This document shows, piece by piece, positions 1,313-19,079 of a stretch of 64,000 bases of DNA. This DNA is from Antonospora locustae. Taxonomy: Eukaryota; Microsporidia. The stretch lies in assembly GCA_007674295.1 (NCBI GenBank), contig CM017449.1, positions 124,001-188,000 on the forward strand. Reading direction: 5' to 3'. Position 1 is the first letter of the stretch; the number at the start of each line of letters is the position of its first letter. Below the pieces are notes generated by a model. It searched no databases and was not told the origin of the DNA. It was given only the letters and a program-made list of their open reading frames with translations. A program made the translations under genes and the position numbers.

Positions 1313-1951
1313 ATGGAAGAAGCGAGCAAGCATCTGGAGCAGCGAGATTACAAGAGATACTTTGAGTGTGTCCAGCAGATGTACAGGCAGAATGAGACGC
1401 CTGCAAACAGAGATCTGTACAACAGCGCGCGGAGAATGTACGAGTCGCACAAGAGCGTTGTGGAGTTCAAAAAGAAGGACATGAGCGACCTGTATGGTCT
1501 TCTGGGTGTAGACAGAGGCGCCACGCAGGAAGAGATAAAGCATGCATACCGGCAACTGGTGCTGAAGTTCCACCCCGACCGCTCGCTGATTCCCGAGTCC
1601 GGCGAGGTTATGCAGATTGTAATGGATGCATACAACACGCTTGTCGACGTAGACAGAAGAGCACGCTATGACAGAAGCCGAGAGTGTAGAGTGCCCTTCG
1701 AGAGAGCTTCCGGCACCGGCCTTCATGATGTCGGCCCCTTCGTCTTCTACAGGCAGCGCTGCCACGTGTGGGTGCCCGAGGACGAGTTTGACGTGTACAG
1801 CTTCATTCACAGCATGGAGGATGCATTCAGTGCCAGGAGCTTGTACAGACGCAGAGTGCACAGAAACACATCAGACGCTCTTGATGCTGGATACATAAAG
1901 ACGCTCCTGGCTTTTTTGGTTCTTGTTCTTATTGTTTCACTACTCAGCTAG
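1313..1951 (+). CDS. tail-anchored J-domain (DnaJ/Hsp40) protein, ER type
   Basis: The protein has 212 residues: a short helical N-terminus (about 1-50), a J domain (about 58-121) with the catalytic HPD at residues 87-89, and a hydrophobic C-terminal segment (LLAFLVLVLIVSLLS) that ends the protein. J domain plus a single C-terminal membrane anchor is the layout of Hlj1/DNAJB12-type cochaperones, which stimulate Hsp70 on the cytosolic face of the ER, for example during ER-associated degradation. There is no G/F region or zinc domain. The ATG at 1313 was chosen because a CCC run precedes it; a longer frame upstream would overlap the previous gene. Confidence 0.85.
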   Translation: MEEASKHLEQRDYKRYFECVQQMYRQNETPANRDLYNSARRMYESHKSVVEFKKKDMSDLYGLLGVDRGATQEEIKHAYRQLVLKFHPDRSLIPESGEVMQIVMDAYNTLVDVDRRARYDRSRECRVPFERASGTGLHDVGPFVFYRQRCHVWVPEDEFDVYSFIHSMEDAFSARSLYRRRVHRNTSDALDAGYIKTLLAFLVLVLIVSLLS

Positions 1952-2117
1952 CACGCTGTACTTGGACAGTACGCGGCGGGTAACTGGTGGTGAGACATGG
2001 CCTCCATGAAAGAACAGGCACTTGAAGGTGTCTCGGCGAGTCTGTATGCGCAAATTATGGTTGTTTATGCATATCGCAGCTGCGTTGAATTGTGCAAAAA
2101 AGAAGCCCAGGTTCGAA

Positions 2118-4055
2118 ATGAAGATTTTCTTTGAAATAAAAGACATTGACAGGAAACCTGCATACGAGTGGGAAAACACATGGATCTCTGTTTCAATCGA
2201 CAACGGAAGAGAAATCAGCAGCAAGCGTGCGTTTGTGACCGAGGTCGCGTCGTGCCACGAGCTGCTCTTTTCGTGGCTTGTCATTGTGTTTGGGTTCTTC
2301 AACAAGAAGACCTCTGAGGTTGAAAGAAACTGCTTCTGCAAAGTACCCTTAAACAAGTTCATGGATAGGCACGCCGGGTTGCAGAGGTACGCCATTCTGA
2401 GCAACGGGTACACAAGCACGTGCTTTGTAAACTCTTTGGGCGACTTTAAGTCTGTTGGAGAGATAACGCTGGAGTTTCAAGTGCGAGATAGCACTTTTGT
2501 GGAGGCAGAACCAAGCGTGTCTGACCCGCAATGGAGCACATTTCTCCTGAGTACCTCACCTGAAAAGATGCTGCTTGACCTTATTGTGGAGACCGTAAGA
2601 AGCCTATCTGTTCTGCCGAGTATCTCGCCTGAAAAGATGCTACTTGACCTTATTGTGGAGACCGTAAGAAGCTCACCTGTCTTGCGATGGGGTATCACTA
2701 TGTTGGATGTGTCATTTGGAAACCTGCATGACATTCTCCATGTAAGCTACAAGATCAAGGACATTGTTCTTGCAGACATAACGCACTTCTACATAGGCTA
2801 CATGTACCTGGTAAGGCACTTTGAGGATATGCTTCGCATGCAAAAAAACGCATATCACGAAAGACATTCTGCATCAGACGAAGACTTTCCTTCTAGCGGC
2901 ATCTACAAAGCAACCCTTGAGGTGGACCTGTCTGCACAGCGCAGACAGGCCAGTGCCAGCCACGCCTACAGAATTAGATCACAAAGGCATTACGAGTACT
3001 ACAGACTGATATTCTACTTTGCCATAGCCCCGTACGGAGGACAAATTGCAGCTACTGACGTCGAAGACAGGCTGCCGTGTGACACTCGCACAACAGGGAC
3101 CACTTTTGATAAGATACTCCGTCTGCTTGGAATACCAGAACGGGATCTTCTCAATGTATGCATAACTAACGTTAAAGGAAAGTGCTCATTCATCGTCTTT
3201 CTATACAAGCACTACCTTGTTGTGTCCTTCCGCGGAACTACATCTCCTAAGGATATATACGAGGACTTTAGGTACGAGTACGTCAGAATCGGAGACGGAT
3301 ACACGCATATGGGCATCAAGGATCTGGCCGAGGGCTTTGTGCAGGACCATTGTGAGAACATTCGCGGGCTCATGTCCAGGCACGGAAAGACACATTTGCT
3401 TCTGACAGGACACTCGATGGGTGGCAGCGTTGCTATTGTTGTTGGGTACATCATACTGAGGACGGGCTTCATTGAAAACGCCAAGCTGAAAGTGGTGGGT
3501 GTCTCTCCAGCCCCCGTTTTCTCCGAGCACATTGTGCAAAACTGGCCATACCGAAACTTTCGGGCAATTGCAGTTGACTTTGACATTGTTCCATTTCTGA
3601 GTCTTGGGTCGTTTCTCGACTTCAAGTATATATGTTGCTGTTTTGGCTACCGCCTGAATAACAGATGCTATATCTCCAACCCACACAGGGAGGTGCAGAG
3701 ACTCCAAGACTTTCTGCTGCACGAGAACATACACATGAAGCTCTACCTCCCTGGAATCATCGTTCATCTACGGTCTTTCAGAAGAACTAGCCCCGATGCA
3801 CTTGACAAGCTCTGGAACCAGACAGGCGGCACAGAAGACGCAATCAGAGACCGTATGTTTGTTGGTGTGAAGAAGTATACCTACACCTTCTCGAGGCAAA
3901 TATACTTTTCAAGTAACATGATAAACCCTCACCTTCCATGTGTCATTCAGAGGATTCTTGACACAGCACTAGAATCCTCCAAGTATATCGAAGACGCAAG
4001 GAAGAAGTCTTTGGACAGTGCCAGCACAAGCACTAAGAAGATCATTCTGGCATAG
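2118..4055 (+). CDS. class 3 lipase (alpha/beta hydrolase)
   Basis: The protein has 645 residues. The C-terminal half carries a class 3 lipase domain: VSFRGTTSPKD (oxyanion region), the nucleophile elbow GHSMGG with Ser433, and the acid FDIVPF with Asp489. A downstream HENIHMKLYLPG may carry the catalytic His. Such enzymes hydrolyse acylglycerols, often diacylglycerol, at membranes or lipid droplets. The N-terminal half is unassigned and holds a tandem 23-residue duplication. The start at 2118 has CCC about 15 nt upstream; an in-frame ATG at 2046 would add a hydrophobic leader and cannot be excluded. AATAAA follows the stop at 4066-4071. Confidence 0.85.
   Translation: MKIFFEIKDIDRKPAYEWENTWISVSIDNGREISSKRAFVTEVASCHELLFSWLVIVFGFFNKKTSEVERNCFCKVPLNKFMDRHAGLQRYAILSNGYTSTCFVNSLGDFKSVGEITLEFQVRDSTFVEAEPSVSDPQWSTFLLSTSPEKMLLDLIVETVRSLSVLPSISPEKMLLDLIVETVRSSPVLRWGITMLDVSFGNLHDILHVSYKIKDIVLADITHFYIGYMYLVRHFEDMLRMQKNAYHERHSASDEDFPSSGIYKATLEVDLSAQRRQASASHAYRIRSQRHYEYYRLIFYFAIAPYGGQIAATDVEDRLPCDTRTTGTTFDKILRLLGIPERDLLNVCITNVKGKCSFIVFLYKHYLVVSFRGTTSPKDIYEDFRYEYVRIGDGYTHMGIKDLAEGFVQDHCENIRGLMSRHGKTHLLLTGHSMGGSVAIVVGYIILRTGFIENAKLKVVGVSPAPVFSEHIVQNWPYRNFRAIAVDFDIVPFLSLGSFLDFKYICCCFGYRLNNRCYISNPHREVQRLQDFLLHENIHMKLYLPGIIVHLRSFRRTSPDALDKLWNQTGGTEDAIRDRMFVGVKKYTYTFSRQIYFSSNMINPHLPCVIQRILDTALESSKYIEDARKKSLDSASTSTKKIILA
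2549..2686 (+). repeat. two tandem 69-bp units inside the lipase gene
   Basis: Unit 1 (2549-2617) and unit 2 (2618-2686) are nearly identical in their central 50 bases and encode the repeated peptide SPEKMLLDLIVETVRS. The period of 69 bp is 23 codons, so the reading frame is kept. The high nucleotide identity, including third positions, suggests a recent duplication. Confidence 0.9.
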
Positions 4056-4119
4056 TAGCATGTGCAATAAAGTTGTAAATATATCCTATTAGTCTTTGTG
4101 CTGTCTTGACGCTGCCCTC

Positions 4120-4626
4120 ATGGGTTGCAGCGAGGAAGAAGAAATTAGTAATAAAAGTGCAGTGTATGACTACAAAGCGTACCTAGAGATCATGCGTGAC
4201 CTGGAAAGATGTTCAAATGTTGCTATCGCTTTGGACATGCTTTTAAGACTTGAAACGTCAGCACTAATGCCGCTTCAGCTGTACAAAACATTGACACGTA
4301 CGCTAAATAAGATACTGCTTGATGGAAAGCACGTGAAGGTGGTGCTTAATGCATGGGCTAGGCTTATCATTAACAGGAAAGCAGCAGAGCTCATTGACGA
4401 TCTCATCGAAGCTGTTCTTCTGCTTTCGAGCCCGGAGGAGTCGGCAGAGTCTGTAGAGCTCCTGTTTGATGTGTACCGTGTGTACTTTTTCAAGCATCTG
4501 AAAGAGTTGAAAGATGTCGTTGGGCTTGAACGCATATGCAGAGAGCTTAGTGCCGAATACGACGCGTTTATTGTCAACTTGCGAGGCGAATTCAAGACAA
4601 GCAAAGCTGCAAGTGACAACAGGTAG
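4120..4626 (+). CDS. small helical protein, faint TFIIS N-domain likeness
   Basis: The protein has 168 residues and is predominantly helical. It begins MGCSEEEE, and CCC lies 5 nt before the ATG. Residues about 35-85 (LDMLLRLETSALMPLQLYKT to VVLNAWARLI) loosely follow the helical pattern of the TFIIS N-terminal (TND/LW) domain, in which a Leu-rich helix pair is followed by an A-x-x-L-I helix. No invariant residues confirm this, so I leave the function open. Its stop lies 3 nt from the convergent ORC2 stop. Confidence 0.55.
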   Translation: MGCSEEEEISNKSAVYDYKAYLEIMRDLERCSNVAIALDMLLRLETSALMPLQLYKTLTRTLNKILLDGKHVKVVLNAWARLIINRKAAELIDDLIEAVLLLSSPEESAESVELLFDVYRVYFFKHLKELKDVVGLERICRELSAEYDAFIVNLRGEFKTSKAASDNR

Positions 4627-4629
4627 TAG

Positions 4630-5448
4630 TCATGCTTTGCTCTTTGCAGAGACCGGCTCACACAACTGCTTTAAAAGCATAGATACGTCTGCACTAGTTA
4701 GGTCTGTTGCAATCTCCTCACTGCATCTGATTTTTAGTATCTGGTGATCCAGAAACTCCGAAAGCAGAACCTGGCATTCGCTCCGTGCCTTCAGAAGAAG
4801 CCTCTTTTTAAGTGCATTAAACATGTCCAAAAGGAAGACATTTTTTGTGCCACTCTTGAGTCTTAGAAATTCAACAAACACCTGCTTTGCCTTTTTTGAT
4901 ACATTCTCGTAGATATGCAGTGTGCTTTCAACTCTATTTACGGTTCTGAAAAGTGCAATGCCAACTATTTCATCGTTGTATGGCACGAATGTAGTGAGAT
5001 CCCTGAATATGAAATTAAACGATCTGACGTCAGAATGAGAAAACATATATGCAGTATCTTCTATTGTTCCAATGATCTTGAGGTTCTTTGTTCTGGATAG
5101 TGGAGCAAGCTCCTTGAATTCGAAATTCAGAAAGACCAATCTTGTTTGCACATCACCTGCTTTCCACGCATTATCTAGTTTTGCAAGAGCTGCATCTATG
5201 TTTTTGCGCTTTATGTCTGCACTTACTGTCTTTTCTGGAAGAACACGTGTGTGCTTTATGATTTTATCTATCGCCTCTGTCAGACCGCAAAATTTGCAGT
5301 TTATGATGACGTTATCTGGAAATAAGAACATCAGCAGCTTCTTTTTGCACCCGTATCCGTAAAACAACAAGTTGAAGTGTTCTAGTAACTCGTTGTACTC
5401 TGTCTTGCATTTCTTGTGAAATCCAAGGAGCTCAGAACCTGCTTTCAT
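4630..5448 (-). CDS. ORC2: origin recognition complex subunit 2
   Basis: The protein has 272 residues, about half the length of yeast Orc2, keeping mainly the conserved AAA-like C-terminal part. Diagnostic stretches are LLFYGYGCKKKLLMF, matching the degenerate Walker region FYGxGSK of Orc2, and SFNFIFRDLTTFVPYNDE, matching the Orc2 signature W-D-x-T-T-F-x-P-Y-x-x-E. Orc2 is part of the complex that marks replication origins and loads MCM. The ATG at 5448 was chosen because CCCTCAC directly precedes it. A longer frame would start with GTG and run to RPF1. Confidence 0.85.
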   Translation of the reverse strand: MKAGSELLGFHKKCKTEYNELLEHFNLLFYGYGCKKKLLMFLFPDNVIINCKFCGLTEAIDKIIKHTRVLPEKTVSADIKRKNIDAALAKLDNAWKAGDVQTRLVFLNFEFKELAPLSRTKNLKIIGTIEDTAYMFSHSDVRSFNFIFRDLTTFVPYNDEIVGIALFRTVNRVESTLHIYENVSKKAKQVFVEFLRLKSGTKNVFLLDMFNALKKRLLLKARSECQVLLSEFLDHQILKIRCSEEIATDLTSADVSMLLKQLCEPVSAKSKA

Positions 5449-5590
5449 GTGAGGGATTCGAGCTCGATGACTATATCTGCATTTCCTATTTTTAAGAAGA
5501 GAGACAATGGCAGGCTTTTTGGTGCTGCGAAAGAACAAAAACTGTCTTTGCTTTTTTGAATAAGGAATCCTAGTTTTAATTTCCCAGAAG

Positions 5591-6151
5591 TCAGAGCACA
5601 AAGACACGTTTTTCGTATTTCTTGTATTCGTATATGACTTCTGACTCGTTTCTGAGCTTTCTCAATCGCAGTGTCAGATGAGGCCCAATATCCTGGAGGT
5701 CAACTTTGTTTTCTCTGAATATGTACCTGTGGTATCTGAAGAAAATAAAATCATTTTTGCAATGAAAGGAGGCCACCTGTCTGCCCTCTATGCGAAAGGG
5801 AAATAGCTTGGCAAGCCAGTCTACCACCTGGTCTCCCAAAGGTGTGTTGAAGTTATGCACAATAAGTTGGGGAATGTCAGGAGTGATTACGGCCTTGTTT
5901 CTAAGGTGTCTTTTGGACTTGTAGTTAATTATCTTGAACTCCACCTCGTTGCCGCTCATGTCTGTTATGCGGATGTACAGAGGCATCTTTGCGTTTTCTA
6001 CGACTTTAACAAGCAGACTGTGCTCGGGGCGTTCTTTGTGTGACGGAAAGAATTGCGAATACGGAATTATCTCTTCAAGCTCTTTACAGAGCTCTATTGA
6101 CGCCTCTCCCTCTGGATCCCTGCTTGTCGTTATCACAACGAAGGTGTCCAT
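5591..6151 (-). CDS. RPF1: ribosome production factor 1 (Brix domain)
   Basis: This 186-residue Brix-domain protein is needed for 60S pre-ribosome assembly. It begins with VITTSRDPEG, the Brix TSRxP motif, and ends with the Rpf1-type stretch ASFHCKNDFIFFRYHRYIF followed by LQDIGPHLTLRL. The DFIFFRxHRY and IGPxxTL elements separate RPF1 from IMP4 and other Brix members. The basic N-terminal extension of yeast Rpf1 is missing. The ATG at 6151 is preceded by CAGCCCCAA; an ATG at 6187 is possible but lacks the motif. It precedes ORC2 on the same strand. Confidence 0.85.
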   Translation of the reverse strand: MDTFVVITTSRDPEGEASIELCKELEEIIPYSQFFPSHKERPEHSLLVKVVENAKMPLYIRITDMSGNEVEFKIINYKSKRHLRNKAVITPDIPQLIVHNFNTPLGDQVVDWLAKLFPFRIEGRQVASFHCKNDFIFFRYHRYIFRENKVDLQDIGPHLTLRLRKLRNESEVIYEYKKYEKRVFVL

Positions 6152-6250
6152 TTGGGGCTGGAATCGAGTCAAAGATATGCAAGACATGTTCTGTCTTGCT
6201 CTACCACTATGCACGCAATAAAGCTGCAGTGTTGTTTTGTGCTTATACTC

Positions 6251-8830
6251 TTATCTGTTTTCTAGATACAGACAGACGTCAACCTCACTGCTGTTGTACC
6301 AAAAGACGTCTCTTGCCTTCGGATTCTCTCTCTGAACACTGCAAAACCTCAAGTTGTAGTGCTTGGAAACGCACTCAACAAGTGATCTGGCAGAGACATA
6401 AACAAGCACAGAATCGCTGATCTTAAGTCCTGACTTCTTTCTGAGCCTTTGCAAAAAGCTGAAGAACTCTCGTGCAGCCTTCGTCTCCTCCAGCTCAGAC
6501 GTCATCTCTGTGTCCAAGATTACGTAAAAGTCATCAAAGCTTGCACAGTATCCATCGCATATAATCTCCCTTCTGTGCAAAACCTCTGACTTGGTGACTT
6601 CTACACCACTATCCCTGACTATTTTTTCAGCCTCAACCAGCTGAGCAAGCACATCTTGTGGTAGCCTGTTAATTAAGCTGATTTTCAGCTTTATTTTTTC
6701 CTTGTCTCCGCACTTTCTTATTTCCGCAAAGTTGGGTCTAAAAGATGTTTTAAATGCATATTCGCTACTGCTAGGAAGCGATATCGTCATCAGGAAACAC
6801 TCGTTTTTTATGACATCCCCGTACTCCAGCACCGTTGTCCTCATCTGTTCGTTGCAAATGACTTTTGCCTCTTTCAATGGTGTTTTGAGAGATATACCCT
6901 TGGCCTCCCTCATTCTCCTGACAGCTTCTATGACTTTCTTGGCATCGTCAAAGCTGTGTCTCTTTACATCTCTAAGGCGCGGAAACATCTCAAAATGCAC
7001 ACTTTTGAACTCGGTGCTGCTCTTTTCTGCTAGCTTTTGGTATGTGTACTCGCTGAAGAAAGGCGTAAAAGGTGCCATCATAATCGCAAACTGAACCAAA
7101 GTGTCTTTCAGAACACTTGATGCACCGCTCTTAAGCGTCTTTCTATTCATTCTTATGTACCAGTTGCTAAGATCATTTACAAAGCTTGTAGCATATCCCA
7201 TAACGCCCTGCAGCATGTATTTACTCATATCCCTCTTCACTTTATTTCCAAAGGTGTTCAGCGTGTTCAGAATCCAGTCATCCATGCGTGTCTGCTCCTG
7301 GTCACCTGCATTTGGACACTCGCTATAGAAGTATATGCAGTTGTACCAAGGTATCAGAAGTGTCTTGAGCACCTCCCCCACACCCTCTTCCGAGAAGCAC
7401 ATGTTCTCTGCCATAACAACGGGGCTAGAGATAAGGTACAGCCGAAGAGAGTCAGCACTATACCTGTTTATCACATCCATTGGATCAGGATAGTTCTTTA
7501 GCCTTTTGCTCATTTTCTTTTTGTCGCTTGCCAAAACTATTCCATTGACAATGCAATTTCTGAACGAGGCTTTGCCAAACAGAACAGTTGAAATGACATG
7601 CATTGTGTAGAACCATCCACGTGTTTGATCAACACCTTCTGCAACAAAGTCTGCTGGCAGGCACAGATTGTCGCACTCGAACGGCCAATGCCTCTGTGCA
7701 TAGGGCATGCATCCACTTTCAAACCAGCAGTCAAAGACCTCTTCAATTCTTCTGTACTTTTCACCGTCTTTGCATATCACCACGTCATCAACGTTCTCTC
7801 TGTGAATGTCGTCTATTTTGCGGCCAGAGAGACGCGACAACTCTTCAATAGATCCTATGCATATGTACTTTCCGTCACAATGCCATAGCGGAATTGGTGT
7901 TCCCCAAAACCTGTTTCGCGAGATCGACCAGTCTCTAGCCTCTGAAAGCCAGTTTTTGAACTTGTGTTCGCCTATCGATTCTGGAATCCAGTTGATCGTC
8001 GAGTTGCTTTCTAGGAGTCTGGGGATCTCACGCTTTACCCTTACAAACCAGTTGGGCACAAGCTTGTAAATTAGTGGTGTGTCAGATCTCCAACAAAAGG
8101 GATATCTGTGGTATACCTTTCCTTCGTATAGAATCTTCTTTCCAAGGTCTTTTATGATACTTTTGTCTGCGTCTTTGACATGCATTCCCTTATACTCAGG
8201 TACTTCCTCGTTGAACCTTCCATTTTCATCCAGTGGGGACGGCAGCAACTCATTTTCCTTGATTAGTCCTAGCATCGTCATCGCCTTGTAGTCATCTTCG
8301 CCAAACCCAGGAGAGCAGTGAACCACGCCTGTTCCATCTATTTCCGACACAAAGTCTGCATGGTAAACACGGAAAAATCCTTTCTCTCTGTAATGATCAT
8401 AGTACATGAAAGGCTGATCGTATTCTAGATGTAGAAGCTCATGGCCTTTCACTTCACTTATAACAACAGCATCCTTGAAATACACATTCACCCTGTCTCT
8501 TTGCATAATAAAAAAGGCACTCTTCAGTCTGAAGATGGCATAGATGAAGCTTTGGTTTACAAGAATTGCCATGTGAGAGGGCAATGTCCAAGGCGTTGTT
8601 GTCCACGCAACCAAAGACAGTGAATAACCCTTGAATGGTTTACGCAACGGAAAGGCTACAAGTATTGACGGGTCGCTTACATCCTTGTAGTTTTGGTTTG
8701 CTTCAAAGTTGCTCAACGGCGTAGAGCATGCAGTAGAATATGGCATAACCCTGTGCCCTCTGTATACAGAATCCTTTTCGTATAGCATCTTAAATATGTA
8801 CCAAATAGACTCCATGAAGCTACGATCCAT
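6251..8830 (-). CDS. ILS1: isoleucyl-tRNA synthetase lacking its N-terminal catalytic half
   Basis: There are 859 codons from the first ATG. Present: the CP1 editing domain (TTTPWTLPSHMA and GTGVVHCSPGFGEDDY), the second half of the Rossmann fold with DWSISRNRFWGTPIP, the KMSKR loop near residue 440, and a full anticodon-binding C-terminus. Absent: about 155 residues that normally precede this point, including the HIGH motif needed for ATP binding. Codons upstream of the ATG still read WIDFRNGYRTM, clear IleRS homology, but the match stops at about 8860 and the frame meets TAG at 8900-8902. The open frame otherwise shows no damage. It is either a recently truncated or pseudogenised copy, or a gene whose 5' exon is elsewhere or misassembled. 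Confidence 0.85.
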   Translation of the reverse strand: MDRSFMESIWYIFKMLYEKDSVYRGHRVMPYSTACSTPLSNFEANQNYKDVSDPSILVAFPLRKPFKGYSLSLVAWTTTPWTLPSHMAILVNQSFIYAIFRLKSAFFIMQRDRVNVYFKDAVVISEVKGHELLHLEYDQPFMYYDHYREKGFFRVYHADFVSEIDGTGVVHCSPGFGEDDYKAMTMLGLIKENELLPSPLDENGRFNEEVPEYKGMHVKDADKSIIKDLGKKILYEGKVYHRYPFCWRSDTPLIYKLVPNWFVRVKREIPRLLESNSTINWIPESIGEHKFKNWLSEARDWSISRNRFWGTPIPLWHCDGKYICIGSIEELSRLSGRKIDDIHRENVDDVVICKDGEKYRRIEEVFDCWFESGCMPYAQRHWPFECDNLCLPADFVAEGVDQTRGWFYTMHVISTVLFGKASFRNCIVNGIVLASDKKKMSKRLKNYPDPMDVINRYSADSLRLYLISSPVVMAENMCFSEEGVGEVLKTLLIPWYNCIYFYSECPNAGDQEQTRMDDWILNTLNTFGNKVKRDMSKYMLQGVMGYATSFVNDLSNWYIRMNRKTLKSGASSVLKDTLVQFAIMMAPFTPFFSEYTYQKLAEKSSTEFKSVHFEMFPRLRDVKRHSFDDAKKVIEAVRRMREAKGISLKTPLKEAKVICNEQMRTTVLEYGDVIKNECFLMTISLPSSSEYAFKTSFRPNFAEIRKCGDKEKIKLKISLINRLPQDVLAQLVEAEKIVRDSGVEVTKSEVLHRREIICDGYCASFDDFYVILDTEMTSELEETKAAREFFSFLQRLRKKSGLKISDSVLVYVSARSLVECVSKHYNLRFCSVQRENPKARDVFWYNSSEVDVCLYLENR

Positions 8831-8860
8831 GGTTCTGTATCCGTTTCTAAAGTCTATCCA

Positions 8861-10007
8861 AGTTAAAAAATTATGGACAAAATGTATAGACGTTATAGTC
8901 TATTGATTGCTTAACACTCGAATTTGAAAAAGTATTTAATTTGTCATACCTTCAAGCATTTTTGGTTATACTTTAAACTATCACGTCAACATACGTAGCA
9001 GTTGTCATAATCGTTGTATATAATGGTTTCCCTTCTTTCATCCCTTTATTTTTTATGAGCATTATTAAATAATTTAGGGGAAAATAGCTGTTTATTTAGA
9101 AAAGGTATCCATACATGCAAATAGTTATTTAAAACCAACTTGGTGGAGACAGTTCACAACTCCACATTAAATAACGCTACCTTTTAGCTCAGCTCCTCAC
9201 AACAGCTACGTGCAGAAGCATTCTTCCTTGGCTCTCAACCAAGCTTGCAACAGTTTTCCTTAGTGCTATAGTTTAAATGAGGATGATATCCACATTTATT
9301 GGAGTTACAGTCTCCTTGGGGTACTTCCTGTGACATGGAGTTACCACATCATTTCAGATCATCACATAAACTACCACAACCTTGCACCTGTGGCTCTTCA
9401 GTTCAGCTCGGCAGCAAGAGACCCAATCCCAACCTCTTGCAACCTCACCATAAAGGTTATTTTCATTTCCTTGATGGTCATTTCATTCCTAGTATTATCG
9501 TAAACTACAATATCAAACTTGTTATATGGCCAAGCTTTGGGCCCGTTCTGATGTATATGCCGGACTCGATACACACGCCAGCGATTTCAACAACTCTCAC
9601 GAAATTGTATGCATATTCCATAGATAGTGATATTTATTTATGTATTAGATAGCTTTTTATAACTATAAATAAAGTGCTTGACACATAAGATAGGTCATAA
9701 CATGCAAAGAAGTTTTGTGTTTCAAACGCTTTAAATAAAGTTATCGCAAAAAGTTTAGATGACAAGGATTGCTTTTCAAAAGGTGTAAGTAAAGAAAGCC
9801 GAATATATGCAGAGACACATACGCAGTGAAGCATGTAAAGAGCAACTAACATGCTAATACAATAGTGCAGCTTAACGATAGCATGTTGTTTATTCACTTT
9901 TACTAGACTGCACTATTTCAAGCGTTTTTGAGATTTTTGTTTACAAGCACAACCTTTCTTCTTTTTTGTTGCACCTATTAACGCGGAGGTGCTATAACCT
10001 ACAATTC
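8861..10007. other. AT-rich gene-free stretch upstream of the truncated IleRS
   Basis: This is the longest stretch without a convincing gene. A hand count over 8941-9120 gives 54 G+C of 180 (30 percent), against 32 of 60 in a sampled UTP10 line (42001-42060). Only short frames are present and none carries the CCC/GGG start signal plus a recognisable domain. I found no tRNA, snRNA or rRNA signature. I looked for the missing IleRS N-terminus (FATGLPHYGH-like) on the minus strand and did not find it. It separates IleRS from TRA1, both on the minus strand. Confidence 0.7.
9398..9586 (-). pseudogene. possible decayed coding fragment
   Basis: A 62-codon minus-strand frame without an ATG at its head reads protein-like (AWPYNKFDIVVYDN, then EMTIKEMKITF). 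An overlapping second frame upstream, starting at the ATG at 9621, reads MEYAYNFVRVVEIAGV and ends where the first continues. Two adjacent frames suggest a frameshifted relic. The W-x-x-F-D and E-M-T-x-K-E pattern faintly recalls the C-terminal ubiquitin-fold domain of E1 enzymes, but I do not trust that assignment. Confidence 0.2.
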
Positions 10008-13000
10008 TTAGAGCCAGGGATGCCATAAGATGTTTCGCATACATAGGTTCTCAGGGTCAGACGACTCGTTCATGATGTTTCTAATTTTTCCACTGGACAT
10101 GGCGGAAAGTCTTGATGCAACTTCGCTGTAATTTCTTTTGAACATATGCTCGACAAACACCTTGATGAAATCCTCTTTACTCATAAAGACTGAGAACCTG
10201 TGTGCTAACGGAGCGAAAACACCCTCAAGACCCTCTTCTCTAAAGAGATGCTGGATATTCTGTGTCATTCTAAAGTAATCGTTTTCATCTGGTGTGAAGG
10301 GAAGAACACTACTTAAGGTCACTGTGGCAGAAAATACGCCGATTCCCACACGGCTAGGATGGTGCTGGTGCATGAACATTGCATAGGCAAAGGCAGATAC
10401 TAGAGCATAGCTCTGAATGCTTTTTCTCTTAAACACAAAGAACGTGTGGCTGTCCCCGTATAGTTCCTCAAACCCATCAGAGAGTACGTTCTTCCTAACT
10501 ATTTCCATTATCTTTCTGAAAGCTTTGAGCCTGAGCTGCTTTGTCGGAAGCTTATTGTTTCCCAGAATTGCGGGCGCCTCTGTATTGTCAACAACATGTT
10601 CTGTGTTCTTTTGTCCACTGTAGTGGGAATTTATTTGGTCGACATATTCGTAAAGACGCTCAAGACCTGGATACATCTTTTCTCCGGATAGCTTCTCGAT
10701 TGCTGCAAGGTACTCAAAGAGAATCTTCTTGGGTGTTCTCTGTGTCTTGAACAGGTAGTCCTCAAGCAAGTCTCCGAAGAACACGATGGGTTCCGGGACT
10801 GCAACCAAGTCGACGTCCGAGGTTAGATTCACTGGTCTTGGAATGCCAATCAAGGTGCTGTAGAAGTCGGGACGGAGCTCCAGATCCAAATCAACAAGCT
10901 CAGCAAGAATAGAGACGTTGCATTCTGATGCACGGTGTCCAGAGCCGGCTACTGTCACAGAATAGACGTAGTCCTTTCCATCGGAGCCTACTGCTGTCAG
11001 CGACCTAGTGAGAAGTTGCCTGTTCACACAAAGGGCTGGTGCAGGTCTGAAATGGTCGATATATACTCTTGATGTGTGCTCTCTATATTCGTTGCGCCCA
11101 AACATGAGCACTCTGAATCCACCTAGGCGCCTAGTGAGGCCTGCGATGCCTACGTCTGCGGCGCCTTTGAATACATATGTCTTAAGGATGTTTTCTATGA
11201 TCTCCAGCCATCTGTATGTCTTTAGCGCAAGCTCAACAAGAGTCATTGAATCACATGAGAAATCATCCAACAAACTGTCAAGCAGATCTTGGTTCCAGCA
11301 TGAAGCTTTTGCAACGCTAATGACTCTTTGGACGATCTTTCTGAGGTCGAATGCAGGGATCTTTCCTTCTATCTGCGACGCTGCTGTGGAGAATATTGAG
11401 TCCAAAAGTGCATAGGCTGTCTCTTCTAGCGTGAACACTATCTTCTTCTTGAAAAATGAGATGATAACAGTCAGTCCAAGTTGTTCACGAGAGCTTTCGA
11501 ATCGCGAACGCCCAAGAATGCTCTGGAGCCTGCGTGCTGCTGCTTCGGTTCTTTCTGTGTGCAGCGCAGGCGAAAGAAGCCTGTCGATCTGGATCTGTGC
11601 AAGCCGCAAAGCAGCCTGTGGAATGTGATGGAAGAGCTTATCAAGGCACATTTCGGAGCATGTACTTCCTTTTTCCACTATCTCGCCGATGAAGAAGCAA
11701 CAGAACCAGGAGAGAGCATGGTAGCTGAGAAAGCGAATGCTCTCTCGCAGGTGTCTGCCGATATCTACCTTTTGCTCATACTCAAAATACCGCAAGCATC
11801 TTATGAAAGATTTGAATGCATCTCTGCTTCGCGAATACACTGCTGCATGAAGAAACGCCACAAAGATGTTTTCAATTGCATTCTGTGTTTCCTCGGCACT
11901 CTTTCCTGCCTTCTTCTCTAGGTACTGTCCCCAGTTAAACCAGCACCATGCGTTTGTAGGGCAGATTTGCACTGCACTTCTGTAGCTGTTATCAGATTCT
12001 CCAAACCTTGCAATATATCCAAACACAGTGCCTCGCTGTTCATCCGTGAAATACCCGACGTTCACCATTCGGGCTCTTCTCAGGCCCTGTTCGCGGTCAT
12101 CCTGTTGCAGATATATCTCAAGTTCATTGCAGATCTTCTCGAACGCATCAGAAGGGCGGATGTTCTTTATGGCAAACACTTTGGCACCAAAGTGACTTGC
12201 AGCATCCCAGTTTCGCCTCTTGATCGCAATTCCAGTAATTCTGTTCAAGGTCCTTGCGAGCTCGTGTTGTAACTCGCTGTCGTTCTCATCAGGGCCAAAC
12301 AAGCATTCCCGAAAGCTATAGAAGTATGCCCACTCTGCAAGAGGCGCGTTGCGAAAGGGTTCGCGGCGTGCCCATGCAGTGTGTGAGCGGCTGCGCAGCT
12401 TCTCTCCGAGTTCGACCACAGCCTGCACTCTGGAAAGAATGCGCGAGAATTGTGGTGTATAAAGAGGTGCCTGCGCAAGCTCCTGTTGTCCCAAGTAGAG
12501 AGCAGAGTCAAGATCCTGGCTGTGTGGATCGCATATGCATTCAAAAACAAACCTGTCGTAGGTCCTCTCCATCTTTGTCAGAATACCCCGTAGCTCGGAA
12601 CCAGCGCCGCGGGATATAAAGTAGCTTTCGGCCTCTGCATTGTAGTCCTTTGTGGATGCAGAGACCTCGTAGAGCATGTCCCATTGTGCAAGGTTCTTAG
12701 CTGCATTCTTCCACTCCTCTTTCATAAATTCGGCCTCTTCGCGACTGAAGTTCTCCCTATCAAGATACTCGCCTGCCTTCAGTATCAGGCGCTGTGCTTC
12801 TCCGTAGTTTCCAATCAACATCTCACGAATGGCTAGGTCTGTTTCGCGGAGCATTGATGAGAATGAGCCATAGTAAAACTCTTCTACCTCTGCAATCTTG
12901 TATATTTTGTTTCTCTCGCTCAAGCTGAGACCGCCAAGGCCTGCAAAGGGAACACCGTGCCGGATTCTCACGTCCGGCACAAAATAGTTGAATACAGATA

Positions 13001-16000
13001 AAAACATTTCAACAGCAGTGCTGCTTCTTCTACTAGTGTTAAGTGCGTGTGCAAAGCCTCTGAAGTCCTTTTCAAAGCTCTCTACCCACCTGCTATCTCT
13101 TCCTACGAGGCTTTTCAAGTATGAAAAGAGAAGTTCAAGACATGCATTCTCGTTGTGGAAACATACATCTAGGATAACATCTCTCAGACTTGCTGGTACA
13201 TACATCGGAAGTCGCTTGCGGAACTTTTCGAGACTTGAAAATGCTCTTTCAGCGCACGTCTCGACATGTGTTGTGTTTTTGGCCTCCTTTGTGTAGATGC
13301 CCTCGTAAAAAGTGTCGCTACCTACTGCATATAGTCTTGGCGTGCGAATGTCTAGATTCCCGTCTACCATTAGCCGTAAAAAGGTGTATGTCCAGTGTCT
13401 CTCAAACATATTCCAATCAAAAGACAGAAGATACTTCAGTCTTTCTACCTTGTCGAATGACAGACTCTCTTCAAACAGCTGATGGAACTCATTTCTGATG
13501 TATGGAATTTGCGATTGAAGACCTCGTACAAAGCATTTCTGGAGGTCCTCGTAGAAACGCACGTGTTTGCTACTTCGAAAGATATATACAACAAAGTTGA
13601 GGAAGCTCTCTGTGTCTTTTGAGAGGTCCAGAAAATCCAAGCCCTCGACATCTGTTGTTTCCATGATTGTAATGATCTCCTCAAAGACATAGAAGTCGTC
13701 CACGTGGCTTGCAAGACGGCCAAGAAACGCAAGATATCTCGCGTCCTTTGCAAAAGGATATTTCTCAACAACATATTGCAATTCGACAATGCTTGTCTTC
13801 GAACCAGATACCCTGGCATGTCCTGATGCCATGTCCACAAATGCATCCAGAAGGCCTTCTAGCGTTCCAAGTACAAGCTCATGATCAAATCCTTTAGGCA
13901 TGTTCTCTCTTCCAAGAGCATGTACAAGAAGATGATACGCAATAAAGGGTGTTTTTCTTGTGCTGTGCATGCGTTCGATGCAGAAGTCAGGACAATGTCT
14001 GAAGAGGTGCTCAGCAAGTGCAGGAACTATGTCCTCCTCGCTATCACTGAGATGCTCACTGAGGTAAGTCAACATTTGTGCATAGAGATGTGCAGATTTT
14101 CCTCTGCTGATCTCGTGTGACAGGCACTCTGCAAGTGTGCGTGTGTTTGCACCCTCAAGATCAATATCTTCACCTATGTCCAAATCGAACTCCTTGTAGA
14201 GCTCAATCAGCTCCTTGCTTGCCATTGCCACACAGAAGTTGAATAGATGCGTGAACAATGTGCTGTAGCTCGTGTGAGGACCTGCAAAGCGGTATGCAGA
14301 AAGCAGAAGCCGCCCACCGACAAGCTTGTGTGCAGCACTTGCTGTACCAAAGAGCCTGTGGATTGCGTCGACTACTTTTGGAAGAATACGGAAAGTTATT
14401 AGCTCAGGTCTTTCTGTGAGGAGAGGAATGAGCACCATTAGATGCGTCTTGTACGAAACACCATGACCAAATACGCCTAGCACAGCATTCTCCATCGTCT
14501 CTGGGTCAAGAAGTGGTGCCTTCAGTGCTTCTAGTATTCTGGAGGGTGACTCACTGTACAATGCAAGCTGTGTAAAGAGTTCTGGTGTTGGACGGTGGCG
14601 GAAGAGATACGCGGCTTCTGAAAAGCCCATGTTGCTGTCTAGAAGAGCCACGTGGCTGTCTTTTTCTCTCATTCTTTCAAACACAATATCGTGTCGCAGA
14701 CATGTAGTCCCGGTATCGTCTCCAAACATGCATGCATTTCTGAGAACTGCATCGCGTACTGTCTCTGTGTACTCTGCATCATGGTAGTCTGGACGCACGG
14801 TATCTAACACTTTGCGATTAAATACTACATGGGGCGCCACGGAATATATTGTGTTCATATGCTTATGTGTCATTCGTGTAGCATTCATACTCATGAACTG
14901 CATGTATTCTGTATGATAGAGGGAGCTGTATCTTGACAGTATGTGTAACAACTCAGTATCCTCGAAGGAATGGCTCATGTGCGAGAGAAGCAGGGCTGCG
15001 TTCACGGACATCTGAGAGCCCTCCTGGACTGCTAGCTTTCTGAGCCTTGGTGTCTGGGCTCTAAGGACGCTGCGCATGGACACTGACTTCTGCAACATCT
15101 GAACTACAAGCTCCAAGACATTAGTGCTGTCAAGGTGATCCAGCAGTGCCTCTGCAATGCACACATGGCGCTCAATAAGTGTGATTATAGACGTGTCCAC
15201 ATCGCCCAGAAACGCGCGAAAGCAGAGTGCGATGCGGTCTGCCTCTACAACTCTTGGAAAGTGTGATAGGATTCTTACCACTCTCAGAAAAACCTCGCCC
15301 GAGCAGTCTGCCATGAGAGCAACACAGATGCCTGCCATGTCGCTCACTAAATCTGCAGGGAAGATGCGAAGAACAGCAAGACACACACACAAATTGTTCC
15401 GTACATTTGTTCTTTCACTATGCAGACTGTGAAACGATGCACGAACAAGACGGTTCGAGAAGCTCGCTACAACCGCCCTGTTGCGGGCACCCAATACCAT
15501 CTCCCTACAGTGCTCAATGAACATGTCGTTCTCGTATACAGGATCGACAAGATGCTTGCATATGCACTCCAGTGCGGCAGCAGTGGCTTCCTCTGTCTCT
15601 CGCAGCCTGAGCAGATAGAACTGACCTCTTGTTCTAAGGAGCGCGTCCTCAGGAGCCGCTGAAGACTCAGCACTACTTGCAAGCGACGCACTCATGAAAG
15701 CGGCGAGTTGCAGCTCGATTTCTAACTGTGGAAAAAGGCTTGACACGAACAACAAACAATCAAGAAGACCAAGAAGGTTGCTTCCTATTGCCTTTGTGCT
15801 TATATTTTTGCAGAATGACGCTGAGTACGGCTCCAGCATGTCCCTAACCTCCACGCCTCTTTTTCTTGAGCAGCACCTCAGCACAGCAAGTGCTGTGTTG
15901 CGAAGGTCCTGAAACGGCGACGAGAGACTTTCAAACAGCAGCTCCACAACATCACTGCTCACATCCTGTGTGCTAATACAAGCTTTCTCAACAAGATAGA

Positions 16001-19000
16001 GGAGAGTGTGGACTACAAGATGTCTATATCTGGGCCGCTCCTGTCCCATATAGAACAAGAGTGGGGGTACGAGAATCGCAAGTTTCTCGCTAGCCCAGTT
16101 TTCCTTGCTGCCAAATAGCTGTACAAAGGCTGCAATTCCGAGCGCTGCTGCACACTGCTTTCTTCGCCTTTTGAAGAACGCAAATGAAACAAGGATTCTA
16201 AGAATATCATCAAACAAACCGCAAGAAAGCGTCCTACTACTGCTCAGCCCGATTTCCATAGCAAGACCATACATAAGGTCTACCATACGGTATGGGGTTG
16301 TCAGAATGCTGCACAGGTGTCCGTCGTACACGCTGTCGCCATCTGCATTCGATATATTTTTTCCAAACACGTTGTCTTCAACTCTACAGTCTTGGACATC
16401 ATAGAGAGAAAATGCCTCGCACAACCCGTGCATGAGGAAGTCATAGTCAAAGTACACGCGTGTGTGCACGTTTTCTAGATAGTAGTACTGTTCGATAATT
16501 CTGCACGTAACCAGGACGCTGTACACACACTCCAGAAACGCATGGTCCTCTGCACTGAAGATGCATATAAGTGCGTCATATACATAATGGTGGTACCGAT
16601 TCATCTCTGCACTGCTCAGACCTGCGATGCGTGCATAGTGAGAGCTCTTGTGCGTTGGCCTACTCTCACTGGTGTCCAGCCCCTGGTTCTCCACAACAAA
16701 GCTGAGCGCCCGTGCCACTTTCTCAAACACATTTTCCTCCTCAACACCCGGCCAGCCAAATGCTCGAAGAAGAAAGCTCTGAAGAAGCACAATTGCTGAG
16801 CGTTGTGCATTTTCTGTGTGTGCACCTGAGATGCGTGCATGCGATGCACATGCAATGGCAGCTGGAATGTGGCTCCACTGGCTATTTTCCTCAGTAGAAA
16901 CACCCCTGATCATCTGGACTGCATTGCGAATAAGGCTGTCACATCTTATCTGCAGAGAATCTTCGACCAAGAAGATATCATAGCTCGGGTATGCTGTATC
17001 TATGACTCTGACGGGACTCTGCAGGTACTTTTTCATTGGGCTATGCAGTTTTGCAAGAATCTGTGTGGCTGCGAGTGCAAAAAGCCCACTGCGGCTGTGC
17101 GCAACAAGACTTTCAACAATTGACACAAGCACATCCTCAGGCACCGACGAGAACACCTCAGTGCTGACAAGATCCAAGGATGCTTCAAAGACGCTAAATG
17201 CATCCCTGAGCACTTCACCATCTCTTCGAAATGCCTCTGCCACAAAGTATGCAATTTTAACAAAGTGCTGAAACGCTAATGTGATCGACAGTGGAATGTT
17301 AAGTGCGAGGTGAATGTATATGTCGTTACTTGGGTCGTCGCGCAGTTGCTTTCTCAGAGTGTCCAGAAAGTTGTCTGTAGCCTCATAAAGAACCTTGGGA
17401 ATTGCTGTGAGACTGTTGTACAGAGGCCTAACCGCATCAAAAAGTAGCTTGATAACATCAAAGGCTCTATCGAGCTCACGTATCAGAGGCCGCGATAATA
17501 TTATCTTCTCCAGCTGGTGGGCACCAAGTTTTCTGGAGCCCATGATATGACTAAGCGCCCTTAATGCAAACTCGTTGCCATGTCTCTGCTTTGTAACCTG
17601 ATCCATCACCTTTGCGAACATATGTAAGCCAAACGCAAAGGCGGACTTCTCCTCCTCAAGGTATACTCTCCAGACATCAAATAGAACCTCATGTCTCTCT
17701 GTCTCTTTAGCAATTGTGCAGGCATGCTTTTTGACGAGGAAGCTGAAATACCTTATATCTGTATACAGAAACAGCCTGTAGAACCTCTCCCTCATACGAT
17801 TTAAACCATTATACGAGAAAACACTGAGAGAAATTCTAAACAGTGCATCTAGACTCCGGAGATCTTCCTCGCAAAAACTCCCCGTGCCAAAGATTGGTGT
17901 GTCAGAGCCAAGACACTCCAACCCATGGCTTGAAGCAACAACATCTTCGAGTAGTATAACTGCAGCACAAACAACACCCTCATCCGCATTATTTATCTTT
18001 TTTCCGTGCTCACTCCGTGTTCTCAGATACTCCATGACATCTCTTGCAACAGTAATTGACCTCCCCAGGAAGACCTGCCATCTGGACATGCCCTCTGAAA
18101 GGTACTGCCTGTTAAGAAAACGCAATGACTCCAACAAGGAGATGAGCGTGCCTGTGTCAAGTACGTTGTGCGCAGCACACTCCACAGTGCTCAGAATGAC
18201 ACCGAGAAGTTCCTCGCGTACACTCGAAAATCCTTTTCTATGGCGCAGTGCCTTCAGCAGACACTTGATGCCAAATGCCCTGACATCGAGGAATCTGCTG
18301 CGTGTGAAGAAGCGAAAGTTTCCCCGTAGCAAGCCGATATTCTTCTCTGCAACTGCAGAAATTCTATCGTATGTCCTAATGCGCAATTCGCGGGAGTCAT
18401 CTCTGACACGTGCGATAAGGCAATGAACAATCTTTTCGATAATGCTTCCGGGCCCTGCATCGCTGCCTGCATCAGAGAGAAGCGCAAGAAGCCGCTGAAG
18501 CATGCAGCTTGTGCGGTTTTGCTCTACTTTACCCTCTGCCTTCGCATGTAGAAGAATATCAGCAGCAGTCTCTATGTCGTGCACGAGATCTTGCATAAGC
18601 ACTCCAGAGAGCCCTGCCGCTCTTGCAAACTCACTAGCAAAGAGCAGCTGGTCAAAAAGCACTCCTGCATCGCCATCTAATGCTCTTTGCAAAGACCTTC
18701 TTGCCGAGAATGCAAGACATTCTACAAACACCGAGACGCGTGACCTGTCAATAATCGACTTTCTGAGGAGCGACTCCATGCATCTTATCGCCAGAACAAC
18801 GTTCACTGGTCTGTCATGTTCTGCAATTCTACAAAGCGCATTATGAATGCTTTCGATATTGGCCTCCCTAAAATCAATTCTGCTGAGGATTTTGAGAGCA
18901 AGCCCGCGGCCTTCAACTTCTACATCCTCTGTTTCGTTCTGCGGACAAGATGTTTCGATGACCTTGAGAACCGCCTGAGAAACACGATCTCCTGGCAAAA

Positions 19001-19079
19001 GTGGTGACATATTGCTTTTGTAGAAGGCCCAGGTTTTAGACCATTCCAGAAGAAGCGCACGTGCCTCCTGTGGTTTCAT
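10008..19079 (-). CDS. TRA1: TRA1/TRRAP-type pseudokinase, coactivator scaffold
   Basis: At 3023 residues this is the giant PI3K-related scaffold of SAGA and NuA4 complexes, which contacts activators. Most of it is alpha-helical HEAT and FAT repeats. The C-terminal 400 residues form a PI3K-like domain, ending in ILWHPWL, the FATC terminus typical of Tra1. In the region expected to hold the catalytic and DFG motifs the sequence reads HQHHPSRVGIGVFSATVTL, without catalytic Asp or DFG, as expected for a Tra1 pseudokinase and unlike TOR or ATM. It is somewhat shorter than yeast Tra1 (about 3740). The ATG at 19079 is directly preceded by CAACCCC. It fits with GCN5 and TAF12-like in this window. 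Confidence 0.88.
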   Translation of the reverse strand: MKPQEARALLLEWSKTWAFYKSNMSPLLPGDRVSQAVLKVIETSCPQNETEDVEVEGRGLALKILSRIDFREANIESIHNALCRIAEHDRPVNVVLAIRCMESLLRKSIIDRSRVSVFVECLAFSARRSLQRALDGDAGVLFDQLLFASEFARAAGLSGVLMQDLVHDIETAADILLHAKAEGKVEQNRTSCMLQRLLALLSDAGSDAGPGSIIEKIVHCLIARVRDDSRELRIRTYDRISAVAEKNIGLLRGNFRFFTRSRFLDVRAFGIKCLLKALRHRKGFSSVREELLGVILSTVECAAHNVLDTGTLISLLESLRFLNRQYLSEGMSRWQVFLGRSITVARDVMEYLRTRSEHGKKINNADEGVVCAAVILLEDVVASSHGLECLGSDTPIFGTGSFCEEDLRSLDALFRISLSVFSYNGLNRMRERFYRLFLYTDIRYFSFLVKKHACTIAKETERHEVLFDVWRVYLEEEKSAFAFGLHMFAKVMDQVTKQRHGNEFALRALSHIMGSRKLGAHQLEKIILSRPLIRELDRAFDVIKLLFDAVRPLYNSLTAIPKVLYEATDNFLDTLRKQLRDDPSNDIYIHLALNIPLSITLAFQHFVKIAYFVAEAFRRDGEVLRDAFSVFEASLDLVSTEVFSSVPEDVLVSIVESLVAHSRSGLFALAATQILAKLHSPMKKYLQSPVRVIDTAYPSYDIFLVEDSLQIRCDSLIRNAVQMIRGVSTEENSQWSHIPAAIACASHARISGAHTENAQRSAIVLLQSFLLRAFGWPGVEEENVFEKVARALSFVVENQGLDTSESRPTHKSSHYARIAGLSSAEMNRYHHYVYDALICIFSAEDHAFLECVYSVLVTCRIIEQYYYLENVHTRVYFDYDFLMHGLCEAFSLYDVQDCRVEDNVFGKNISNADGDSVYDGHLCSILTTPYRMVDLMYGLAMEIGLSSSRTLSCGLFDDILRILVSFAFFKRRRKQCAAALGIAAFVQLFGSKENWASEKLAILVPPLLFYMGQERPRYRHLVVHTLLYLVEKACISTQDVSSDVVELLFESLSSPFQDLRNTALAVLRCCSRKRGVEVRDMLEPYSASFCKNISTKAIGSNLLGLLDCLLFVSSLFPQLEIELQLAAFMSASLASSAESSAAPEDALLRTRGQFYLLRLRETEEATAAALECICKHLVDPVYENDMFIEHCREMVLGARNRAVVASFSNRLVRASFHSLHSERTNVRNNLCVCLAVLRIFPADLVSDMAGICVALMADCSGEVFLRVVRILSHFPRVVEADRIALCFRAFLGDVDTSIITLIERHVCIAEALLDHLDSTNVLELVVQMLQKSVSMRSVLRAQTPRLRKLAVQEGSQMSVNAALLLSHMSHSFEDTELLHILSRYSSLYHTEYMQFMSMNATRMTHKHMNTIYSVAPHVVFNRKVLDTVRPDYHDAEYTETVRDAVLRNACMFGDDTGTTCLRHDIVFERMREKDSHVALLDSNMGFSEAAYLFRHRPTPELFTQLALYSESPSRILEALKAPLLDPETMENAVLGVFGHGVSYKTHLMVLIPLLTERPELITFRILPKVVDAIHRLFGTASAAHKLVGGRLLLSAYRFAGPHTSYSTLFTHLFNFCVAMASKELIELYKEFDLDIGEDIDLEGANTRTLAECLSHEISRGKSAHLYAQMLTYLSEHLSDSEEDIVPALAEHLFRHCPDFCIERMHSTRKTPFIAYHLLVHALGRENMPKGFDHELVLGTLEGLLDAFVDMASGHARVSGSKTSIVELQYVVEKYPFAKDARYLAFLGRLASHVDDFYVFEEIITIMETTDVEGLDFLDLSKDTESFLNFVVYIFRSSKHVRFYEDLQKCFVRGLQSQIPYIRNEFHQLFEESLSFDKVERLKYLLSFDWNMFERHWTYTFLRLMVDGNLDIRTPRLYAVGSDTFYEGIYTKEAKNTTHVETCAERAFSSLEKFRKRLPMYVPASLRDVILDVCFHNENACLELLFSYLKSLVGRDSRWVESFEKDFRGFAHALNTSRRSSTAVEMFLSVFNYFVPDVRIRHGVPFAGLGGLSLSERNKIYKIAEVEEFYYGSFSSMLRETDLAIREMLIGNYGEAQRLILKAGEYLDRENFSREEAEFMKEEWKNAAKNLAQWDMLYEVSASTKDYNAEAESYFISRGAGSELRGILTKMERTYDRFVFECICDPHSQDLDSALYLGQQELAQAPLYTPQFSRILSRVQAVVELGEKLRSRSHTAWARREPFRNAPLAEWAYFYSFRECLFGPDENDSELQHELARTLNRITGIAIKRRNWDAASHFGAKVFAIKNIRPSDAFEKICNELEIYLQQDDREQGLRRARMVNVGYFTDEQRGTVFGYIARFGESDNSYRSAVQICPTNAWCWFNWGQYLEKKAGKSAEETQNAIENIFVAFLHAAVYSRSRDAFKSFIRCLRYFEYEQKVDIGRHLRESIRFLSYHALSWFCCFFIGEIVEKGSTCSEMCLDKLFHHIPQAALRLAQIQIDRLLSPALHTERTEAAARRLQSILGRSRFESSREQLGLTVIISFFKKKIVFTLEETAYALLDSIFSTAASQIEGKIPAFDLRKIVQRVISVAKASCWNQDLLDSLLDDFSCDSMTLVELALKTYRWLEIIENILKTYVFKGAADVGIAGLTRRLGGFRVLMFGRNEYREHTSRVYIDHFRPAPALCVNRQLLTRSLTAVGSDGKDYVYSVTVAGSGHRASECNVSILAELVDLDLELRPDFYSTLIGIPRPVNLTSDVDLVAVPEPIVFFGDLLEDYLFKTQRTPKKILFEYLAAIEKLSGEKMYPGLERLYEYVDQINSHYSGQKNTEHVVDNTEAPAILGNNKLPTKQLRLKAFRKIMEIVRKNVLSDGFEELYGDSHTFFVFKRKSIQSYALVSAFAYAMFMHQHHPSRVGIGVFSATVTLSSVLPFTPDENDYFRMTQNIQHLFREEGLEGVFAPLAHRFSVFMSKEDFIKVFVEHMFKRNYSEVASRLSAMSSGKIRNIMNESSDPENLCMRNILWHPWL

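Follow-up and report, generated by a model that had tools for sequence, protein, structure and literature searches.

A truncated synthetase frame and the junction beside it

The window, a stretch of 64,000 nucleotides of the Antonospora locustae assembly (C3:124001-188000), contains on its minus strand a frame for isoleucyl-tRNA synthetase (IleRS) that lacks its beginning. From the ATG at 8830 to 6251 this frame encodes 859 amino acids (882 from stop to stop), which correspond to residues 147-1005 of the 1005-aa intact enzyme and include the CP1 editing domain, the KMSKR motif, the anticodon domain and the C-terminus. Pfam identifies tRNA-synt_1, Anticodon_1 and DUF5915, the first of these starting at profile position 135 out of 414, and the alignment with the best solved relative, the IleRS 8wnd_A, starts at residue 152 of the latter. 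Upstream of the ATG, the codons at 8860-8831 can be read directly as WIDFRNGYRT (residues 137-146) and match the DNA of an intact copy on another contig, C9. Identity to this copy ends sharply at 8860, and a TAG in frame with the truncated gene follows at 8902-8900. The preliminary description of this DNA had proposed several of these features, including the 859 codons, the residual block before the ATG and the abrupt end of homology, and the frame, the domain matches, the alignment with 8wnd_A and the comparison with C9 bear them out.

We aligned the window frame with the C9 copy and the 120 database matches listed. In these 122 sequences the HIGH site reads HYGH in 119, the C9 copy among them, and HFGH in one; it is a gap in two, one of which is the window frame. 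The latter therefore lacks the HIGH motif of the Rossmann fold expected of a functional class I IleRS, and it retains the KMSKS motif (as KMSKR) as well as the anticodon-binding and C-terminal domains, as had in part been noted from the sequence at the outset. Compared with a eukaryotic cytosolic IleRS (class Ia), here a microsporidian one, the window frame is the same over residues 147-1005, where 858 of 859 positions are identical to the intact C9 enzyme, but it lacks residues 1-146 with the HIGH motif, as an edge product of the junction.

Beyond 8860 lies an AT-rich sequence that is found only at the junction (8861-9218, 31.6% GC): a search of the genome with 8861-9207 returned, apart from itself, only partial matches of 70%. 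It overlaps a copy of a short dispersed element (9090-9296, plus strand) that is about 70% identical to two copies on C9 (C9:14550-14826 and C9:64073-63797), themselves inverted and 99.3% alike. The next gene past the junction is a TRA1-like ORF of 3023 aa (10008-19079, minus strand) with matches to Tra1_ring and FAT. We also considered a non-coding RNA at the junction and rejected it: Rfam gave one match between 8700 and 10100, SNORD100, which is below threshold (score 21 bits, gathering score 58, E 0.23).

An intact gene and a probable second version of the locus

The preliminary description had proposed to look for a second, full-length IleRS, and there is one on C9. The search of the genome (3,170,203 bases in 17 contigs) with the truncated protein returned the protein itself, a near-identical match on C9 that lies in an open frame of 1010 aa, and, on C11, a partial match of 30%. 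PF00133 gave six matches, the best being that on C9 (profile positions 2-413 of 414). The C9 gene is complete, has the HYGH motif, and consists of one uninterrupted frame with no intron. Loss of the enzyme is ruled out because this full-length IleRS exists. An upstream exon carrying the HIGH motif and joined near 8860, one of the options raised earlier, is rejected; none is needed there because the C9 gene is a single uninterrupted frame. The C11 match (30% identity over query residues 362-464, PF00133 positions 2 to 414) is taken as a candidate valyl-tRNA or other class I synthetase and not as an IleRS paralogue.

Database searches gave 7,995 IleRS candidates, all above threshold, of which the best 120 were listed; the first match stands for a cluster of four sequences. 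The intact form is among the matches, as a 1005-aa protein with a reported identity of 100% to the C9 product; it comes from an 8,894-bp contig of source 'lgn', whose sample is perhaps not independent of the present isolate. No near-identical form of about 859 aa occurs among the best 120 of the 7,995 matches, in a database that may lack records of the window's own genome. The IleRS is microsporidian-like, the top matches named by organism including Astathelohania, Encephalitozoon and Ordospora. The intact C9 enzyme is 53-55% identical to the Encephalitozoon enzymes listed. Plasmid records with IleRS-like matches number 238, all below 60% identity, and the five listed are all bacterial.

The boldest option raised by the preliminary description was an editing-only factor. 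On this reading, the 859-aa frame would be expressed and would clear Val-tRNA-Ile but not activate isoleucine. Free-standing trans-editing factors exist, such as AlaX and YbaK, and these do edit without amino-acid activation, as was proposed for the window frame, which stays open and retains the editing, KMSKR and anticodon regions. Yet AlaX and YbaK are small, diverged families, unlike this undiverged piece of IleRS. With just one of 859 residues changed relative to the intact enzyme, there has been no time for a new function, and there is no sign that the frame has diverged under a constraint of its own; the start is a mere internal methionine, and the frame belongs to an alternative version of the locus that encodes the intact enzyme. 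Nothing further was found in favour of such a factor, and we regard it as extremely improbable.

The relation between the two contigs extends well beyond IleRS. Window positions 1802-8860 correspond to C9:171047-163989 reversed (7,060 columns, 4 mismatches, 2 gap openings, 99.9% identity), and positions 9208-16631 to C9:7424-1 reversed (7,441 columns, 6 mismatches, 30 gap openings, 99.5%). In the latter, the bases 9208-9218 have three mismatches in 11 and solid identity begins at 9219. Since C9 is 171,047 bases long, both of its ends fall inside matches to C3. These matches lie 347 bp apart on C3, in the order and orientation expected if C9 were inserted between them, so that the plus strand would read C3-left, 156,564 bases of reversed C9 (C9:163988-7425) and C3-right. 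Such placement of both ends, in consistent order and orientation, is what marks a redundant contig, and it is hardly to be expected by chance. The GC content of C9 climbs toward its right end, from about 0.3 to 0.46, and the adjoining part of the window holds 0.42-0.55. This trend fits a continuation of C3-left into C9 and thus supports a single locus, but it says nothing on whether the C3 join is false.

From these sequence correspondences, the C3 stretch and C9 are almost certainly two versions of one locus. The earlier suggestion of a recently truncated duplicate is right in that the sequence occurs twice, but this is one locus assembled twice and not an extra copy of the gene, because the other end of C9 matches the far side of the junction. 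A recent segmental duplication would instead place two loci in every genome, with C9 as a separate chromosome that has received C3 DNA at both ends, or with the copying in the other direction. The double occurrence of the sequence would fit this, and contigs of this assembly do have end sequences in common (the left end of C3 with C12 and the beginning of C2, the right end with C2). However, two separate events would be required from spots 347 bp apart, in the sole orientation that closes up; the C9 ends carry ordinary genes (TRA1-like and lipase-like), and IleRS is cut mid-gene. We consider a duplication highly improbable.

Redundancy in the form of haplotigs, or alternate contigs, is known in long-read assemblies of heterozygous genomes. 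The present case resembles it in that the two ends of C9 overlap C3 by several kb on both sides of a structural difference. It differs in that the alternate-looking contig, C9, carries an essential block and the other, C3, is without it.

False join or structural variant

The block present on C9 and absent from C3 (C9:7425-163988) is gene-dense and mostly AT-rich. It has 107 candidate ORFs of at least 100 aa lying wholly within it, after a simple overlap filter, and nine tRNA genes (ARAGORN on 10-kb pieces); Rfam on four C9 pieces found three tRNAs only. A DNA search of the genome with one of the nine, tRNA-Trp (CCA), gave no second match, although a diverged copy could have escaped it. With Pfam at 1e-10, seven of the ten ORFs scanned, out of 95 lying within one sequence piece, gave matches: a ribonucleotide reductase large subunit, a V/A-type ATPase, an importin-beta-like TPR protein, a protein with DUF3591 and a bromodomain (presumably TAF1-like), CPSF-A, a formin FH2 and a PI3/PI4 kinase. 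The C3 version skips all of this plus the first 136 residues of IleRS, and it should not be the sole form in the cell, because a cell can hardly lack the whole block.

Two explanations account for most of the probability, and all other readings jointly account for little. The first, which we give about an even chance and towards which we lean slightly, is that the C3 junction is a false join. In the intact form, IleRS would continue past window position 8860 on C9, and the TRA1 side, near position 9219, would follow only after about 156.6 kb (C9:163988-7425); C3 would join both sides over 358 bp, cutting IleRS just before residue 137. Such a join would have its origin in a chimeric read or in faulty contig joining, not in living cells, and the 859-aa frame would then be a fragment of the intact gene and no gene of its own. 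The second explanation, to which we give somewhat less than an even chance, is a real structural variant, in which a homologue, a nucleus or a minor clone has a deletion of about 156.6 kb and C9 is the intact allele. The assembler would have built the deletion form into C3 and kept the intact form apart, as a contig of its own, and the cut IleRS would be a deletion-edge remnant covered by the intact allele. Of the options in the preliminary description, the assembly error is left, and beside it a structural variant of the same locus, which has the same support from the placement of the C9 ends.

The placement of the two C9 ends, 347 bp apart in fitting order and orientation, is read directly from the sequences, as are their identity to C3 and the full-length IleRS with its HIGH motif on C9. 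It would result from either process; that the join is false is what we infer from it together with other evidence. Where C3 breaks off, the 8,894-bp database contig codes for the intact protein without interruption, which argues for a false join and against a variant to the extent that its sample is independent; the lack of a near-identical shorter form among the database matches listed points the same way. C9 itself shows signs of assembly strain. At C9:25447 a single N stands between exact direct repeats of 159 bp, as from an unmerged overlap of two contigs butted together, the left terminal 1.6 kb has many single-base indels or gaps relative to C3, and the lipase and TRA1 frames have frameshifts in the C9 copies and not in those of C3. 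A variant also has to contend with the content of the block, outside which neither a full-length IleRS nor a tRNA-Trp was found, so that the deletion could persist only when covered. Ribonucleotide reductase, V/A-type ATPase and importin-beta-like genes (by Pfam) may weigh in the same direction.

Other observations fit a variant better than a false join. The 358-bp junction is AT-rich and looks like true genome DNA, and its dispersed element runs unbroken through 9207/9208, across the start of the C9 match, where C9 has the right part only. The four substitutions in the 7-kb overlap on the IleRS side are all transitions: two are silent, one exchanges Ala and Thr in the lipase, and one exchanges Asp and Gly in IleRS. 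The IleRS substitution, at 8772, lies 88 bp from the break; the window has Asp and C9 has Gly, as does the database protein. These points hint at two true haplotypes. Finally, one study reports both diploid and tetraploid microsporidia (PMC12558613).

The TRA1 side poses difficulties for both explanations. On the IleRS side it is C3 that is broken, and C9, where a conserved gene runs through uninterrupted, is native; the TRA1 side shows the opposite, with a native-looking C3 and a C9 that looks broken. Whichever form is real, more than one event therefore separates the two, and neither a single false join nor a single deletion explains the pattern without a second difference. The GC content of C9 also changes sharply at about C9:7000. 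We considered a deletion by recombination between copies of the dispersed element, which is unsupported, because on either side of 9207 the junction copy has only about 70% similarity to the C9 copies.

Implications and further features of the two contigs

Whichever explanation holds, the cut IleRS is ordinary: it is an assembly edge between two overlapping versions of one locus, or a deletion variant, and no new kind of enzyme. The apparent oddity of a synthetase without its HIGH half is thereby removed. In this microsporidian assembly, C3 and C9 overlap and ought to be a single contig. Any count of chromosomes or genes and any synteny plot should take this into account, because the Antonospora locustae assembly provides the colour key when chromosomes are compared across microsporidia (PMC12558613).

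A real junction would give direct evidence that a microsporidian can be heterozygous for large structural differences. If it were also kept, which we regard as unlikely, a block of 156.6 kb would be permanently absent from one homologue or nucleus, and with it about 100 genes, among them the one intact IleRS and the one tRNA-Trp that were found. Such a parasite would be an obligate structural heterozygote, none of whose viable stages would have the deletion form alone.

Several minor features complete the description. The Asp at 8772 is weak as a sign of decay, the residues at this site in 121 aligned proteins being G in 60, N in 42, D in 14, K in 4 and E in 1. For the lipase alleles, the protein search listed one match, a relative at 56%, and no same-species protein among the matches listed. 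Within the lipase-like ORF (2046-4055), comparison of the window and C9 copies revealed two adjacent units of about 69 bp, 88-92% alike, at window positions 2542-2680. At about 39-60 kb, C9 has a block with sharp boundaries and about 51% GC, set in DNA of about 30% GC, possibly a rearrangement or a misjoin; some 3 kb past its right edge there is an inverted copy of the dispersed element. At the left end of C3, positions 1-1500 contain tandem arrays of 71 bp and 83 bp, and 761-1500 are partly common to the start of C2 and to C12:146830-147830, a subtelomere-like arrangement. At its right end, the last 1.5 kb (C3:259645-261144) are about 100% identical to C2:252355-253853, which may be a contig overlap or a subtelomere common to both.
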